Positions 12,177 to 18,214 of a stretch of 36,591 nucleotides of DNA are shown piece by piece (the stretch's first letter is position 1; each line of letters opens with the position of its first letter). The notes below the pieces were generated by a model. The model saw only the letters and a program-made list of their open reading frames with translations, was not told the DNA's origin and ran no database searches. This stretch comes from Muribaculaceae bacterium (GTDB lineage Bacteria > Bacteroidota > Bacteroidia > Bacteroidales > Muribaculaceae): positions 1 through 36,591 of the forward strand of contig JAFLTM010000011.1 of assembly GCA_022509225.1 (NCBI GenBank). Reading direction: 5' to 3'. The translations under genes were made by a program, and so were the position numbers.

Positions 12177-13496
12177 ATGATGAATTGGGAAAGATTGATT
12201 AGTGACAGACGACTAGGGCTCGAAGAACTTCACGACAACAACAACCAGATAAGAAGTGACTTCCAGCGTGATTATGACCGTCTGATCTTTTCTTCACCCT
12301 TCAGACGACTTCAAAACAAGACTCAGGTGTTCCCCTTGCCGGGGAGTGTCTTTGTGCATAATCGTCTGACACATAGTTTGGAAGTATCAACTGTGGGGCG
12401 CTCATTGTCAAAAGAGGTAATCAGGCGGCTTGAACATATTAATAAACAAGAGTTTGACCTGTTGAAACATATTCCTGACATTGTAGCAACCGCTTGTCTG
12501 TGTCACGATCTTGGGAATCCCCCTTTCGGCCATTCCGGAGAAAAAACGATATCAACATGGTTCAGCGAAGGGCCGGGGGTCGATCTTAAAAACCATCTCA
12601 GTATCCAACAATGGATGGATTTTGTGAATTTTGAAGGAAACGCCAACTCTTTCAGATTGCTGACAAATCAATTTGTGGGAAGGAGAAAAGGTGGGTTCGC
12701 CATGACATACAGCACCCTCGGAGCACTTATTAAATATCCGTGGTCGTCGGAACACGCGGGCTACAAAGGAAAATTCGGTTACTTTCAAAGTGAAGAATCA
12801 ACATATAGAAAAGTGGCTGAATGGCTTGACATCCCGGAACTTTCAAATGGTGTCTTCGCTCGCCATCCTCTTGTCTATCTCATGGAAGCGGCAGACGATA
12901 TCTGTTACCAGATTATGGATATTGAAGATGCGCACAGACTCGGAATTTTAACAACTAAAGAATCAACCCTGTTCCTATTGAATTTTTTTGACGCCGACCG
13001 AAAGGGAAAATTGGAACGGGGCATGAACTATCTGACTGATCCTAATGAAAAAATCGGGTATCTGAGATCGGCTGTGATTGGTGAGACTGTTGAAAGTTGT
13101 GCCGATACATTTGTCTACAATCTTGACAAGATCATGTCAGGTGAGCATGTCGGGTCTCTCGTCGATATAATGGCTGATAAGCTTGCGAATGCCTACCGGG
13201 ATTGCTCCGCAATGGCATACGAACGTATCTATTGTGCCCCTGATGTTGTGGATGTTGATCTGGCGGGACACCGGATTCTTACTTATCTCTTAGATAAATT
13301 GATGGATGCGGTTTTAAATCCCGAAAAAAATTACAGTAAGCTCCTGCTCAGCAAAATGCCTAAGCAATACGATATTAATTCCCCGACGCTATATGGACGC
13401 ATTCAAGCGGTGCTTGACCACATTTCCGGAATGACCGACGTTTATGCGCTCGACCTTTTCAGGAAACTTAACGGTCATTCATTGCCTGCAGTTTAG
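12177..13496 (+). CDS. dgt: Deoxyguanosinetriphosphate triphosphohydrolase (dGTPase)
   Basis: The 439-residue cytosolic HD-domain enzyme hydrolyses dGTP to deoxyguanosine and triphosphate, tuning the dNTP pool. The HD metal site is intact: RLTHSLEVS (H66), CLCHDLGNPPFGHSGE (H110-D111, then H118) and a later EAADDICYQIMDIED. FRRLQNKTQVFPLP near the N-terminus is a dGTPase signature. The length fits the Bacteroidetes-type family. Two ATGs are adjacent (ATGATG), so the start may be 12177 or 12180. The TPM-domain gene begins 13 nt downstream, so they are probably co-transcribed. Confidence 0.94.
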   Translation: MMNWERLISDRRLGLEELHDNNNQIRSDFQRDYDRLIFSSPFRRLQNKTQVFPLPGSVFVHNRLTHSLEVSTVGRSLSKEVIRRLEHINKQEFDLLKHIPDIVATACLCHDLGNPPFGHSGEKTISTWFSEGPGVDLKNHLSIQQWMDFVNFEGNANSFRLLTNQFVGRRKGGFAMTYSTLGALIKYPWSSEHAGYKGKFGYFQSEESTYRKVAEWLDIPELSNGVFARHPLVYLMEAADDICYQIMDIEDAHRLGILTTKESTLFLLNFFDADRKGKLERGMNYLTDPNEKIGYLRSAVIGETVESCADTFVYNLDKIMSGEHVGSLVDIMADKLANAYRDCSAMAYERIYCAPDVVDVDLAGHRILTYLLDKLMDAVLNPEKNYSKLLLSKMPKQYDINSPTLYGRIQAVLDHISGMTDVYALDLFRKLNGHSLPAV

Positions 13497-13509
13497 ACAA
13501 CATTTTGAA

Positions 13510-14790
13510 ATGAGAAATAGAAATAAAGCAAACATCATATTATCGATTTTTTTTGCATGCTTTGCGTTGATGTCATTTGGGATGAATTATTCGCCTTCAG
13601 ACATAATCAATCCCAATATTGCAGACCGTAGCCAATATCTTGCAGATCCCGAACATCTGGTCAGCACACAGGCGAAATCAAGGGTGAATTCAACACTTTG
13701 GAATCTCCGGCAAGCCACCGGAACAGAAGTTGTGATGGTGGTTGTGCCAAACACCGGTGACTACACTGAAGAAGACTTCGCAACTAAATTATTTGATGAA
13801 TGGAAAATCGGTAAATCTGATAAAGACAACGGTGTGTTGATTTTGATTGTGCCCGGTCAAAGAGCAGCAAGAATAGCAACCGGCTACGGGGTCGAGGGTA
13901 TAATACCTGATATTTCTGCTAAAAAAATAATCGATCGGTCAATAATACCTTATATGAGGAATAACGATCTTGACGGAGCTGCGCTTGCGGTGGCTAAGGA
14001 TATATCGGCAGTGTTAAGTGATCCTGAGGCAGCTGCCGAATTGAAAAGTTCACGAAAAGAAATATGGGAGGAAACACCTGAAAGCGACATCACAGTTGAA
14101 GACATATTTTATCTTGCAATTACTCTGGCAATTGGGGTTTTCCTTTTTGGTATGGGGAAATTCTTTTATGATTCTAACCGGTTCAGAAAGCGCGACCGAT
14201 ATGAAAGAGCCATAGGCTGGCACCGTGAGAAAAGTTCTTATCTGTTTTATGCGATAACTTCTCTAGGACTCGGTCTGATACCATATTGGCTCGCGCGTAG
14301 AAAATATAACCTTGCCAGAAACAAACCGTATGATTGCCCTGCATGCCGTGGAAAAATGCATAAATTAAGTGAGGAAGAAGATAACAATCTGTTAAGTCCT
14401 TCCCAGGATTTTGAAGAGAAACTTAACACGGTGGATTACGATGTATGGGTCTGTGACCAATGTGGCACTGTGGAAAGATATGCTTTCCCAACCCGTCAGA
14501 TGAAATATTTTAAGTGTCCTAATTGCCAAACTGTGGCAATGTGTCTGACGAGCGACAGGGTTGTTATACCGCCCACTACTAAATCAACCGGTACCGGCGA
14601 AAGGACTTATGAATGCAAGTATTGTGGTTTCAGAAAAAAAGACCGTTATTCTATCCCACCAAAAACTGATGTGGGACCTGCAATAGCTGCCGGCTCAATC
14701 CTTGGATCAGGAAGACACGGAGGTGGAGGATTCGGTGGAGGATTCGGTGGAGGAAGAACCGGCGGAGGTGGGGCAACCGGCAGGTGGTGA
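13510..14790 (+). CDS. TPM-domain membrane protein with two zinc-ribbon-like modules (YgcG-like)
   Basis: The 426-residue protein has a signal peptide (1-24, ILSIFFACFALMSFG) and a TPM domain (about 35-170, QATGTEVVMVVVP...TGYGVEGIIPD). Two hydrophobic segments follow (about 200-219 and 244-262), separated by a very basic loop. Then come four CxxC pairs (C276/279, C315/318, C336/339, C369/372) that read as two zinc ribbons, and a tail of GGGFGGGFGGG repeats. The ORF track starts at 13444. The ATG at 13510 is preferred because it begins the signal peptide and clears the dgt coding region. TPM/YgcG proteins are widespread in bacteria with unclear function; some plant relatives act in photosystem repair. 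No enzymatic role is assigned. The location of the zinc ribbons relative to the membrane is unclear. Confidence 0.85.
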   Translation: MRNRNKANIILSIFFACFALMSFGMNYSPSDIINPNIADRSQYLADPEHLVSTQAKSRVNSTLWNLRQATGTEVVMVVVPNTGDYTEEDFATKLFDEWKIGKSDKDNGVLILIVPGQRAARIATGYGVEGIIPDISAKKIIDRSIIPYMRNNDLDGAALAVAKDISAVLSDPEAAAELKSSRKEIWEETPESDITVEDIFYLAITLAIGVFLFGMGKFFYDSNRFRKRDRYERAIGWHREKSSYLFYAITSLGLGLIPYWLARRKYNLARNKPYDCPACRGKMHKLSEEEDNNLLSPSQDFEEKLNTVDYDVWVCDQCGTVERYAFPTRQMKYFKCPNCQTVAMCLTSDRVVIPPTTKSTGTGERTYECKYCGFRKKDRYSIPPKTDVGPAIAAGSILGSGRHGGGGFGGGFGGGRTGGGGATGRW

Positions 14791-14830: not shown

Positions 14831-15895
14831 CTATGGCATGCGCCGTAATCTAAGTTTTGAAGACTGGTAAGGAAACTGGAACAGAAGCGTTTCACCTTCT
14901 CCACGCTGAGCCCTGATCTCATATTTCAGTTTTTCTTTCATGGAATCAGTCCACTCCACATCATATAGACCCCGGAAGGGAGTGGGATGAAGAACGATTT
15001 TCTCATCACCGGGTGTCCAGGCATTTTGGTTGACAACTGCACCATCCAAATAGAGGAATATATAATCATCTCCATTTTTAATACATGCCATAACATACTG
15101 GCCACCCATTTTCAAAAGAGATTCCTCCAGATCTCGATCATAGATGGTCCAATATCCTTCCATCATATCGTTGCTTTGAGATAAATATTCATCAATCTTA
15201 TCTTTTATAAATGGCAACCTATTTCTTTCGTTGTCGCTGTCAGAAACCAGGGTGCACGCAATGTCATCTATCACAAGTCTGGCACCCCATCCGGCTATAT
15301 ACCCGAACCCGGTTAACAAATCTTTTCCAAGGGAAAGATTAAATATTTCCTGAATGCCTGTGTCTCCTCCTTTTATTCCTATAATTCCCTCATTAACTGT
15401 GACCTTCCAGATATTGTCTTTGTCGTATGGATTAAATCCGCTGATAAATTTCTTTGCATGAGAGCTTCCATCACTTAATTTATAAACCCGGATATCCAGA
15501 CAAGGTGTGGGTTCGGGCAGCGTTTCTTCCTCATTTCCCTGCATCATGACCACAACTGTGTCAGCAGGTGTGGTTATAAAAAATCCCCATTTAGGATTCT
15601 TAACATGGTTTTTTCTTCCGTCAGAATCATAATAGGGATATTTCTTAAGTGGATTGGCGTTTTCATTTTTTGCCCTAAAGACTATCTCTATCTTATTTAT
15701 ATCCTCTCCAAATTTCAGATAATCAAACTGTAAAGTATCGGTTAGATTCTCTATCACGAGACCTTCCTCACAACCATATCTGAATGGAGCGAATCCCCTT
15801 GTTTTGTTTAGATAAAGTGTCGTTTCATTTGCAGCTAAACAATCCGCAGCTAAACATGCAAGTAACATCAGGAATAAAAATAATCTTGTTTTCAT
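14831..15895 (-). CDS. Exported protein of unknown function
   Basis: The 354-residue product starts with a clean signal peptide (LFLFLMLLACLAADCLA). The mature part is rich in beta-like stretches and aromatic residues (LQFDYLKFGEDINKIEIVFRAKN, WGFFITTPADTVVVMMQ, MEGYWTIYDRDLEESLLKMGG). I do not recognise a family. The phrases YWTIYDRDLEE and YVMACIKNGDDYIFLYLDG suggest a C-terminal small beta-domain that could bind a ligand, but this is a guess. It is the last gene of the pyrE operon and overlaps the LysE-type gene by 4 nt (ATGA). It converges on the TPM gene with a 40-bp gap in which no terminator is evident. Confidence 0.8.
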   Translation of the reverse strand: MKTRLFLFLMLLACLAADCLAANETTLYLNKTRGFAPFRYGCEEGLVIENLTDTLQFDYLKFGEDINKIEIVFRAKNENANPLKKYPYYDSDGRKNHVKNPKWGFFITTPADTVVVMMQGNEEETLPEPTPCLDIRVYKLSDGSSHAKKFISGFNPYDKDNIWKVTVNEGIIGIKGGDTGIQEIFNLSLGKDLLTGFGYIAGWGARLVIDDIACTLVSDSDNERNRLPFIKDKIDEYLSQSNDMMEGYWTIYDRDLEESLLKMGGQYVMACIKNGDDYIFLYLDGAVVNQNAWTPGDEKIVLHPTPFRGLYDVEWTDSMKEKLKYEIRAQRGEGETLLFQFPYQSSKLRLRRMP

Positions 15896-16551
15896 CCTTG
15901 CACAAGATTTGAAATCCCTGTATAAATACCCACAAAAGCAAAAAGGAGGATAACCACACCTATTATCCGGTTAATTAGCCACATGGAACGAACATTAAAA
16001 TGTGCTCTCAGTTTATTAACAGAAAATGTTACAAATTCCCACCACAGAATAGCACCTGCAAATATTGCAAGATATCCTGCGATGTAATAGTAAAAGCTTA
16101 TTTCCGGTATAGAAAAGTTAAATCTTGCGAAAAGTCCTATTATCAAGAAAAGAATCAACGGATTTGAAAACGTAAACAAGAATCCCCCGAGAATATTTTT
16201 ATGGGGCGAGACATGGCTGATTTCTTCTGACTGTGACTTTAATGTGGCGGCAGGATTTTTTTTAAAAAGATAGATGGCGAATGCAATTAGCACAACACTG
16301 CCCACAAGTTGAATCACATTCTGATTCCTTTCGAGGAATTCTTCTATGAACGAGAGTCCAAAACCGGTCAAGATGCAATATATAAGATCTGACAGCGCAG
16401 CTCCGATACCGGTGTAGAGACCTGTTTTGCGTCCCTTATAAAGAGTGCGTTGGATACATAGGATTCCCACCGGACCCATCGGTGCGGATATAAGTATGCC
16501 GATAGCAATACCTCTCCAGAGCACATAGAATAAACTGTCGAAAAAAAGCAT
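15892..16551 (-). CDS. LysE-family translocator
   Basis: A 219-residue inner-membrane protein with about six helices. The first helix and loop GIAIGILISAPMGPVGILCIQRTLYKGRKTGLYTGIGAALSDLIYC is the LysE/RhtB signature. The FTFSNPLILFLIIGLF segment matches the conserved asparagine-proline region of the fourth helix. Family members export amino acids and related small molecules by proton antiport; the substrate here is unknown. The ORF track starts at a TTG (16569). The ATG six codons in (16551) is preferred and leaves 19 nt after the upstream gene. Its stop overlaps the start of the exported-protein gene by 4 nt. Confidence 0.88.
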   Translation of the reverse strand: MLFFDSLFYVLWRGIAIGILISAPMGPVGILCIQRTLYKGRKTGLYTGIGAALSDLIYCILTGFGLSFIEEFLERNQNVIQLVGSVVLIAFAIYLFKKNPAATLKSQSEEISHVSPHKNILGGFLFTFSNPLILFLIIGLFARFNFSIPEISFYYYIAGYLAIFAGAILWWEFVTFSVNKLRAHFNVRSMWLINRIIGVVILLFAFVGIYTGISNLVQG

Positions 16552-16570
16552 ACACCGACTATTGCACAAT

Positions 16571-17095
16571 TTAATTTGTTATCAGGTATCCACCTGAAAC
16601 ACTTGCGACACACCTGTATGATTTGAGGGCATATTTGTATTTTCCGGTTGCAGCCATTCCTCCAATGGGGGCACCTCTCTGCATTGTCACATCATAGACA
16701 GATTCACAAACCGGACATCGGGCCATATAATTTTCATCATCTATCACCACCCTGACATTTGATTGCCTTTCAACAGGGCAGGCAAGATCATACGCCATTA
16801 GTGCCGTTGAACTACCAGAGAACGGGTCAAGCCCTTCTATCAACAGAACGCCTCCAAAGCCCGTTGCACTTGTTGAAGTGTAAGGAAAGCCTGAAGGCAG
16901 TTTGACATCAGATGATAAAATAAAATTGCGAAATGAACCGAATCCCGAAACTCCGTAGGTGTTCCACAAACCTGAATTCTCCAGCGAGATATTGACAGGC
17001 TGATTTGGAATCCTGTCGCTGTCTACTGAATCACAGCTTGTTGTCAATAAATAGCTTAAAAATAAATAAATTGATATTTTTATTCCAGGCTTCAT
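16571..17095 (-). CDS. Rieske-like lipoprotein lacking the canonical histidine ligands
   Basis: The 174-residue protein has a lipoprotein signal (FLSYLLTTSC, lipid on Cys21) and a C-terminal domain laid out like a Rieske [2Fe-2S] protein. Box 1 is ACPVE where CxH is expected (C106, Val108). Box 2 is CPVCESVYD where CPxHxSxYD is expected (C127, Cys130). GAPIGGMAAT and ALKSYRC then match the usual G-x-P-x-xGPA and L-x-x-Y tail. Both histidines are therefore missing, while C106, C127, C130 and C162 could form an all-cysteine site. Whether a cluster, zinc or nothing is bound cannot be told. It overlaps the SRPBCC gene by 4 nt (ATGA) and precedes the LysE-type gene. Confidence 0.75.
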   Translation of the reverse strand: MKPGIKISIYLFLSYLLTTSCDSVDSDRIPNQPVNISLENSGLWNTYGVSGFGSFRNFILSSDVKLPSGFPYTSTSATGFGGVLLIEGLDPFSGSSTALMAYDLACPVERQSNVRVVIDDENYMARCPVCESVYDVTMQRGAPIGGMAATGKYKYALKSYRCVASVSGGYLITN

Positions 17096-17529
17096 GCGAA
17101 TGGAATGGCGCCCAGGACTTCTCCGAACTGGTTTGCCATTTTTTGTATTTGACCACCCACCATCGGTTTCAACATAACCGGGATGTCGATCTCGATGTCC
17201 ACACGAGCTTTCGATTCCGTTTCACCTTCCGGCTTCACATGCATTGCCAACGACATTGCAATGGGTATTCCCTCTCCATTTAGCTTGATTAATTCCGGTG
17301 GCCTCTTCTCTACAACTCGGAATATCAAAGACCCCATCGGGCCACCCGGAACCTCTATTGAGTCGGCTGTGATTTTGATGTTATCAAACATCTGCCGCTT
17401 GTCTGCAGGTATCTTGTCGGGCGATACTTTATCAAGCATTGTCCTTAGATTCTCAAGATTTGAAATCTTGGAAAAAACTGTTGAGGCATCCGCTTTCAAT
17501 GTAACCTCCGGTGATGAATATGTAGTCAT
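17092..17529 (-). CDS. SRPBCC (START/Bet v1-like) family protein
   Basis: The 145-residue cytosolic protein matches the SRPBCC helix-grip fold. The opening MTTYSSPEVTLKADASTVFSKISNLENL is the strand and helix typical of polyketide-cyclase/START-like proteins. The last helix LKPMVGGQIQKMANQFGEVL closes the hydrophobic cavity. Such proteins bind small hydrophobic ligands, and no ligand can be proposed here. It lies 40 nt downstream of pyrE, a neighbour arrangement recalled from other Bacteroidales genomes, and overlaps the Rieske-like gene by 4 nt, implying translational coupling. Confidence 0.82.
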   Translation of the reverse strand: MTTYSSPEVTLKADASTVFSKISNLENLRTMLDKVSPDKIPADKRQMFDNIKITADSIEVPGGPMGSLIFRVVEKRPPELIKLNGEGIPIAMSLAMHVKPEGETESKARVDIEIDIPVMLKPMVGGQIQKMANQFGEVLGAIPFA

Positions 17530-17569: not shown

Positions 17570-18214
17570 TCATTCATGGTTGTCGGGCATCCAACCTGCA
17601 GGATTTTCCCTCCACTCTCTTAATGTCTCCGCTTCGGCTGCACTGATATAGTTTGTTTCTTCTGCAACCTCAATCATTGTTGAGTAGTCACACAATGAAA
17701 TAAGGGTGATATTGGCTTCGTGGAATCTTTTAACAGCCATAGGAAATTTATAATTAAACAGACAAGCCATTCCAATCACTTCACATCCATAGTTCTGAAG
17801 GATTTCCACAGTTTTCAGTGAGCTCCCTCCGGTTGACACAAGGTCTTCAATCACCACAACTTTTGTGCCCGGTTTCAAATTACCCTCTATGCAGTTTTCA
17901 AGGCCATGGTCTTTTGGAGTGTCCCTGACATAAACGTATGGCAAACCCAGTGTATCTGCTACTATAGCCCCTATCGAAATAGCGGAAGTAGCCACGCCTG
18001 CTATTGCCTCAACATCTGAAAAATTCTCCAAGATAGCCCTTGAATATTCAATTTTCACAAAATTACGGATGTCAGGATACGACAAAATTCTACGGTTATC
18101 ATTATATATAGGTGAATTCCAACCGGAAGCCCATATAAACGGGTTATTAGGTTGCAGTTTTATTGCACTGATTTGCAAGAGCTTTTCTGCCAATAGCCTA
18201 TCCGTCTTCATCAT
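17570..18214 (-). CDS. pyrE: Orotate phosphoribosyltransferase
   Basis: The 214-residue enzyme converts orotate and PRPP to orotidine 5'-monophosphate in de novo pyrimidine synthesis. The PRPP-binding signature VVVIEDLVSTGGSS is intact. The N-terminal FIWASGWNSPIYNDNRRILSYP and the flexible-loop region YVRDTPKDHGLEN are diagnostic of OPRT. The length is normal for the family. Two ATGs are adjacent (MM), so the start may be 18214 or 18211. It heads a five-gene minus-strand operon, and a well-matched promoter lies about 70 bp upstream. Confidence 0.96.
   Translation of the reverse strand: MMKTDRLLAEKLLQISAIKLQPNNPFIWASGWNSPIYNDNRRILSYPDIRNFVKIEYSRAILENFSDVEAIAGVATSAISIGAIVADTLGLPYVYVRDTPKDHGLENCIEGNLKPGTKVVVIEDLVSTGGSSLKTVEILQNYGCEVIGMACLFNYKFPMAVKRFHEANITLISLCDYSTMIEVAEETNYISAAEAETLREWRENPAGWMPDNHE

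Follow-up and report, generated by a model that had tools for sequence, protein, structure and literature searches.

The stretch of DNA analyzed here (the window) comprises 36,591 nucleotides from a Muribaculaceae bacterium and harbors a minus-strand gene for a lipoprotein of the Rieske fold, which lies within an apparent operon. The features of the locus are as follows.

17570..18214, minus strand: pyrE, orotate phosphoribosyltransferase (TIGR00336, 135 bits, over the cut-off); first gene of the apparent operon and a conserved neighbor
17092..17529, minus strand: SRPBCC-fold gene immediately upstream of the lipoprotein gene (PF10604, E 0.0022, below the cut-off); a neighbor conserved in relatives
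16571..17095, minus strand: Rieske-fold lipoprotein with a putatively rebuilt metal site, 174 aa
17033..17095, minus strand: lipoprotein signal peptide and lipobox, with Cys21 as the predicted lipidated residue
16769..16783, minus strand: box 1, ACPVE, residues 105 to 109, with C106 as ligand candidate, V108 at the position of a lost His and E109 as candidate for the fourth ligand
16691..16717, minus strand: box 2, CPVCESVYD, residues 127 to 135, with C127 and C130 as ligand candidates, C130 being the second lost-His position
16658..16675, minus strand: G141-A-P-I-G-G146 loop of the Rieske fold (G141 in 154/169 and G146 in 161/169 Bacteroidales homologues)
16616..16627, minus strand: L157-K-S-Y160, the Rieske fold's conserved strand at the C-terminus (Y160 in 168/169, L157 in 156/169)
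16610..16612, minus strand: Cys162, lineage-specific and outside the conserved site (Cys in 24/169, V or T in most)
15892..16569, minus strand: LysE-type exporter gene directly downstream (PF01810, E 1e-20), in the apparent operon
14831..15895, minus strand: gene that closes the apparent operon, for an uncharacterized protein of 354 aa whose N-terminus has a signal-like stretch; a conserved neighbor in the genus

As seen, pyrE, the SRPBCC gene, the lipoprotein gene, the LysE-type gene and the gene of the 354-aa protein form an apparent operon. The SRPBCC gene overlaps the start of the lipoprotein gene by 4 bases, and the two are likely translationally coupled. The 354-aa product had no family match over the cut-off in Pfam or NCBIfam. 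The pyrE-SRPBCC pair lies upstream in the window's genus and in a few other families, whereas in many other Bacteroidales families the gene is preceded by argH (as which we take the PF00206 lyase) and/or by an aldo/keto reductase gene (L012, L013, L014, L044-L047, L051, L052, L054-L057, L060-L062, L065, L072, L073). Genome context was considered as a clue to the function of the lipoprotein, and none of these neighbors, pyrE-SRPBCC, argH or the aldo/keto reductase, suggests one. Elsewhere in the window, the plus-strand ORF at 13444-14790 looks, by eye, to encode a TPM-like secreted protein with Cys-rich stretches resembling zinc knuckles, and it overlaps the end of the ORF upstream of it (12177-13496) by about 50 bases.

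The lipoprotein contains no histidine in its 174 residues, and its cysteines are C21, C106, C127, C130 and C162. By inspection, the signal peptide carries the lipobox TTSC21, which places the protein among the bacterial lipoproteins, and C21 is kept in 202 of 209 aligned homologues, in agreement with the lipid anchor proposed when the sequence alone was read. The protein is predicted to reside in the envelope. Net acidic residues commonly occur just past the lipobox Cys in the homologues; in the window protein the acidic residues following Cys21 are D22, D25 and D27, which do not match SDDDD, the consensus of the surface lipoprotein export signal proposed for B. fragilis (PMC5080379).

Canonical Rieske proteins hold a [2Fe-2S] cluster with two Cys and two His ligands, arranged as C-x-H ... 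C-x-x-H. The window protein gave no match at E values up to 1 against Pfam and NCBIfam, a PDB sequence search with it returned nothing, and nothing was found when its own genome was searched with PF00355. In the profile check proposed in the sequence-only reading, copies with the altered site from four genomes passed the curated PF00355 cut-off; single members reached an E value of 1.5e-4 at best with that model, and some members matched the MocE/HcaC Rieske ferredoxin models (E 8e-6 to 9e-7). Aligned by hhalign, the family profile matched canonical Rieske proteins with a probability of 98% and a P value of 1.8e-13. A PDB search with a 25-row profile returned Rieske and zinc-ribbon matches, all of them weak. 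Searching with the AlphaFold model, whose confidence is moderate overall (pLDDT 68) and higher in the core, Foldseek listed hits that were nearly all Rieske proteins, several at a probability of 1.00, and no match at E 0.001 or below. The window protein is thus related by fold to the Rieske proteins, while it falls short of the PF00355 cut-off and lacks the 2Cys-2His ligand set.

The fold is shared with the bc1/b6f Rieske subunits, the arsenite oxidase small subunit and the Rieske ferredoxins, and so are the two-loop C..C layout, the G-x-P-x-x-G loop and the L-x-x-Y strand, all of which the earlier reading had picked out and which can be seen directly in the sequence together with ACPVE and CPVCESVYD. 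What differs is the metal site. The profile-profile alignment pairs C106 and C127 with both Rieske cysteines, and V108 and C130 with both histidines; with no His in the protein, the claim that both His ligands had been replaced is borne out. All 169 Bacteroidales members examined have Cys in place of the box 2 His of canonical Rieske proteins, the box 1 ligand stands at +2 in canonical proteins and its candidate at +3 in the window family, and the canonical box 1 Gly at position 110 is lost in the window protein.

Relatives occur in 282 of the 297 genomes of the window's bacterial family, and a 25-member profile found a match, usually single-copy, in 248 of 295 sampled Bacteroidales genomes, so the protein family is near-universal in this order. 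In a phylum-wide sample, 49 of 297 genomes gave a match, a number to which some canonical Rieske proteins and matches to short stretches at the N-terminus contribute. No description of a Rieske-like lipoprotein family of this kind was found in the literature searched, where the only find bearing on such a site was the review of designed Sulfolobus sites (PMC2946596). Eight positions are invariant in the diverse 25-member alignment, namely C21, V34, G79, D103, C106, C127, C130 and Y160. The invariance of C21, D103, C106, C127, C130 and Y160 indicates that the residue changes in boxes 1 and 2 are not due to chance.

None of the 169 Bacteroidales homologues departs from C106 or C130 (169/169 each), and position 127 holds Cys in 151 of them and Asp in 14. 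Position 108, the place of the Rieske His, drifts among V, Y, H, N, F and K, whereas position 109 is restricted, with one of Glu, Asp, Cys and His present in 99 of the 106 homologues of the plain three-Cys type. The homologue rows are related, so these counts are not independent and changes on the tree are the fairer measure; on the tree, position 109 turned to Cys some six times and to His some three times. A restricted position 109 next to a drifting 108 points to a two-knuckle arrangement, C-x-x-[E/D/C/H] ... C-x-x-C. Rubredoxins and zinc ribbons share these two knuckles, C-x-x-[C/E] and C-x-x-C, with the family, and among the weak Pfam matches of family members a zinc-ribbon model comes up most often. 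With two C-x-x-C-type knuckles and four co-conserved ligand-type residues, the family resembles the zinc-ribbon/rubredoxin type of site, the candidate ligands of the window protein being Cys3Glu and not Cys4; unlike in rubredoxin or a zinc ribbon, the knuckles are surrounded by the larger Rieske fold and the fourth Cys is replaced by Glu in most members. Glu109 occupies the conserved position of the site that is not a Cys, which the sequence-only reading had missed. Some canonical Rieske lipoproteins also have Glu at +3 of box 1 (CTHEG), and part of the conservation of E109 could therefore be inherited.

Several groups of homologues depart from the common pattern. In L170, L193, L202, L209, L226 and similar sequences, C127 is replaced by Asp while C106 and C130 are kept and position 109 is usually Asp; these proteins possibly have a Cys2Asp2 site or a C106-C130 disulfide. 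Homologues L112, L113, L117 and L118 carry C106, a Cys near +8, C127, C129 and C130 together, and their extra pair (near +8 and C129) resembles the disulfide of bc1-type Rieske proteins. Flavobacterial Rieske-like lipoproteins of the same superfamily share the lipoprotein anchor, the fold and, in most, C106 and C127 with the window family, but position 130 is Asp in most of them and position 109 is Gln or Asn. They also have an extra Cys pair, one near +8 of box 1 and the other at 129, similar to the pairs of bc1 Rieske disulfides; many of the flavobacterial relatives L075-L103 read CPNQ..SC in box 1 and C-x-C-D in box 2, with positions 109 and 130 lost.

A set of engineered proteins offers a precedent for the changes seen here. 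In the Sulfolobus Rieske ferredoxin, the H64C mutant carries a low-potential Cys3His [2Fe-2S] cluster, cluster assembly largely fails in H44C/H64C, and H44I/K45C/H64C (Iwasaki et al. 2005) has a mononuclear Fe site of the rubredoxin type instead of the [2Fe-2S] cluster, with Fe/Zn noted in the figure legend of the review (PMC2946596). Sulfolobus residues 44, 45 and 64 map to residues 108, 109 and 130 of the family. The ligand spacing of H44I/K45C/H64C is identical to that of the window family, with no ligand at +2, one at +3 of box 1 and a box 2 Cys at +3. The two differ in that the Sulfolobus site is designed, all-Cys and measured as mononuclear, whereas the window protein is natural and known from its sequence, with Glu at +3 of box 1 where the mutant, like some relatives of the window protein, has Cys. 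Among the relatives, L014 has a putative Cys4 set.

With moderate confidence, we propose that the window protein is an envelope lipoprotein of the Rieske fold in which a mononuclear site like that of rubredoxins and zinc ribbons has taken the place of the 2Cys-2His [2Fe-2S] site. The ligands in the window protein would be C106, E109, C127 and C130, in the knuckles C-x-x-E and C-x-x-C, and Asp, Cys or His would take ligand position 109 in other lineages. The metal would most likely be Zn(II), in a structural or metal-binding role, and less likely a rubredoxin-like Fe; of the two options named at first, zinc keeps its place as the leading choice and a [2Fe-2S] cluster becomes the less likely one, given the Sulfolobus mutants (PMC2946596). 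A mononuclear site is favored over [2Fe-2S] because H44C/H64C is largely without a cluster, H44I/K45C/H64C is mononuclear, and the family shows the latter pattern (PMC2946596). We infer this mechanism from the family's sequences and from the published Sulfolobus design.

Three other readings have to be weighed. The main rival, which we consider unlikely, is a cluster-free Rieske fold whose metal site is gone. A disulfide, most probably C106-C130, would then hold the loops together, C127 would be free or engaged elsewhere, and the protein would serve as a structural or binding lipoprotein. This reading would account for the presence of C106 and C130 in 169/169 homologues, even those with Asp at 127, including seven homologues without extra loop cysteines that keep only these two cysteines of the site along with Asp127, and the flavobacterial pattern of C106, a Cys at about +8, C127 and C129, with 109 and 130 lost, also reads as disulfides. 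Nevertheless, the commonest class has an odd number of site cysteines (three) together with a ligand-type residue at 109, where most of the substitutes are likewise of the metal-ligand type (D, C, H). As for the machinery, a VKOR-domain protein in the window genome is in line with disulfide formation; however, DsbB was found in none of the 80 sampled genomes (0/80) and a VKOR match in only 3 of the 63 Bacteroidales sampled beyond the window's family, which makes a disulfide a less natural explanation for most holders of the lipoprotein. VKOR is common in the window's genus and rare in other sampled Bacteroidales. The VKOR protein of the window genome (L251, G000:C16:18000-19600, minus strand) is a 336-aa membrane protein whose N-terminal part resembles, by eye, a C39-type peptidase region.

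An unusual [2Fe-2S] cluster bound by C106, C127, C130 and E109, or by H108 where it is kept, with a potential below that of Rieske clusters, appears to us quite doubtful. Its model is the low-potential cluster of the Sulfolobus H64C mutant (PMC2946596), and His108 beside C130 is indeed retained in some family members, but position 108 is not conserved and no cluster-handling or redox partner was recognized beside the gene, except the aldo/keto reductase in some families. The Cys4 site of C106, C127, C130 and C162, for [2Fe-2S] or zinc, was the original suggestion, and only its first three cysteines hold up. The window protein does have all four, and C162 is seen again in its near relatives within the genus; yet the predicted co-conservation of the four breaks down at position 162, which is Cys in only 24/169 homologues, changes about 9 times on the tree and lies two residues after the near-invariant Y160, on the C-terminal strand and not in a cluster loop. 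We regard this reading as highly improbable, and E109 is the better candidate for the fourth ligand. Within the window's family, C162 was found in 15 of 32 VKOR-positive versus 5 of 19 VKOR-negative genomes, so that VKOR presence does not clearly explain it.

The favored mononuclear site also allows a bolder version, which we advance as a very tentative idea: a natural redox-active iron site, rubredoxin-like or Cys3Glu, within a Rieske scaffold that a whole, mostly anaerobic order would carry on the cell envelope. Such a site would have evolved by the same ligand moves as those used in the laboratory design.

For microbiologists, these observations draw attention to a widely conserved, predicted envelope protein. 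If the mononuclear reading is right, the family would be a natural counterpart, near-universal across the Bacteroidales, of the published design in which a Rieske cluster site was converted to a mononuclear one. Bioinorganic chemists would gain a series of evolutionary steps in a single fold, running from 2Cys-2His to Cys3Glu, Cys4 and Cys3His sites and possibly to cluster-free forms.
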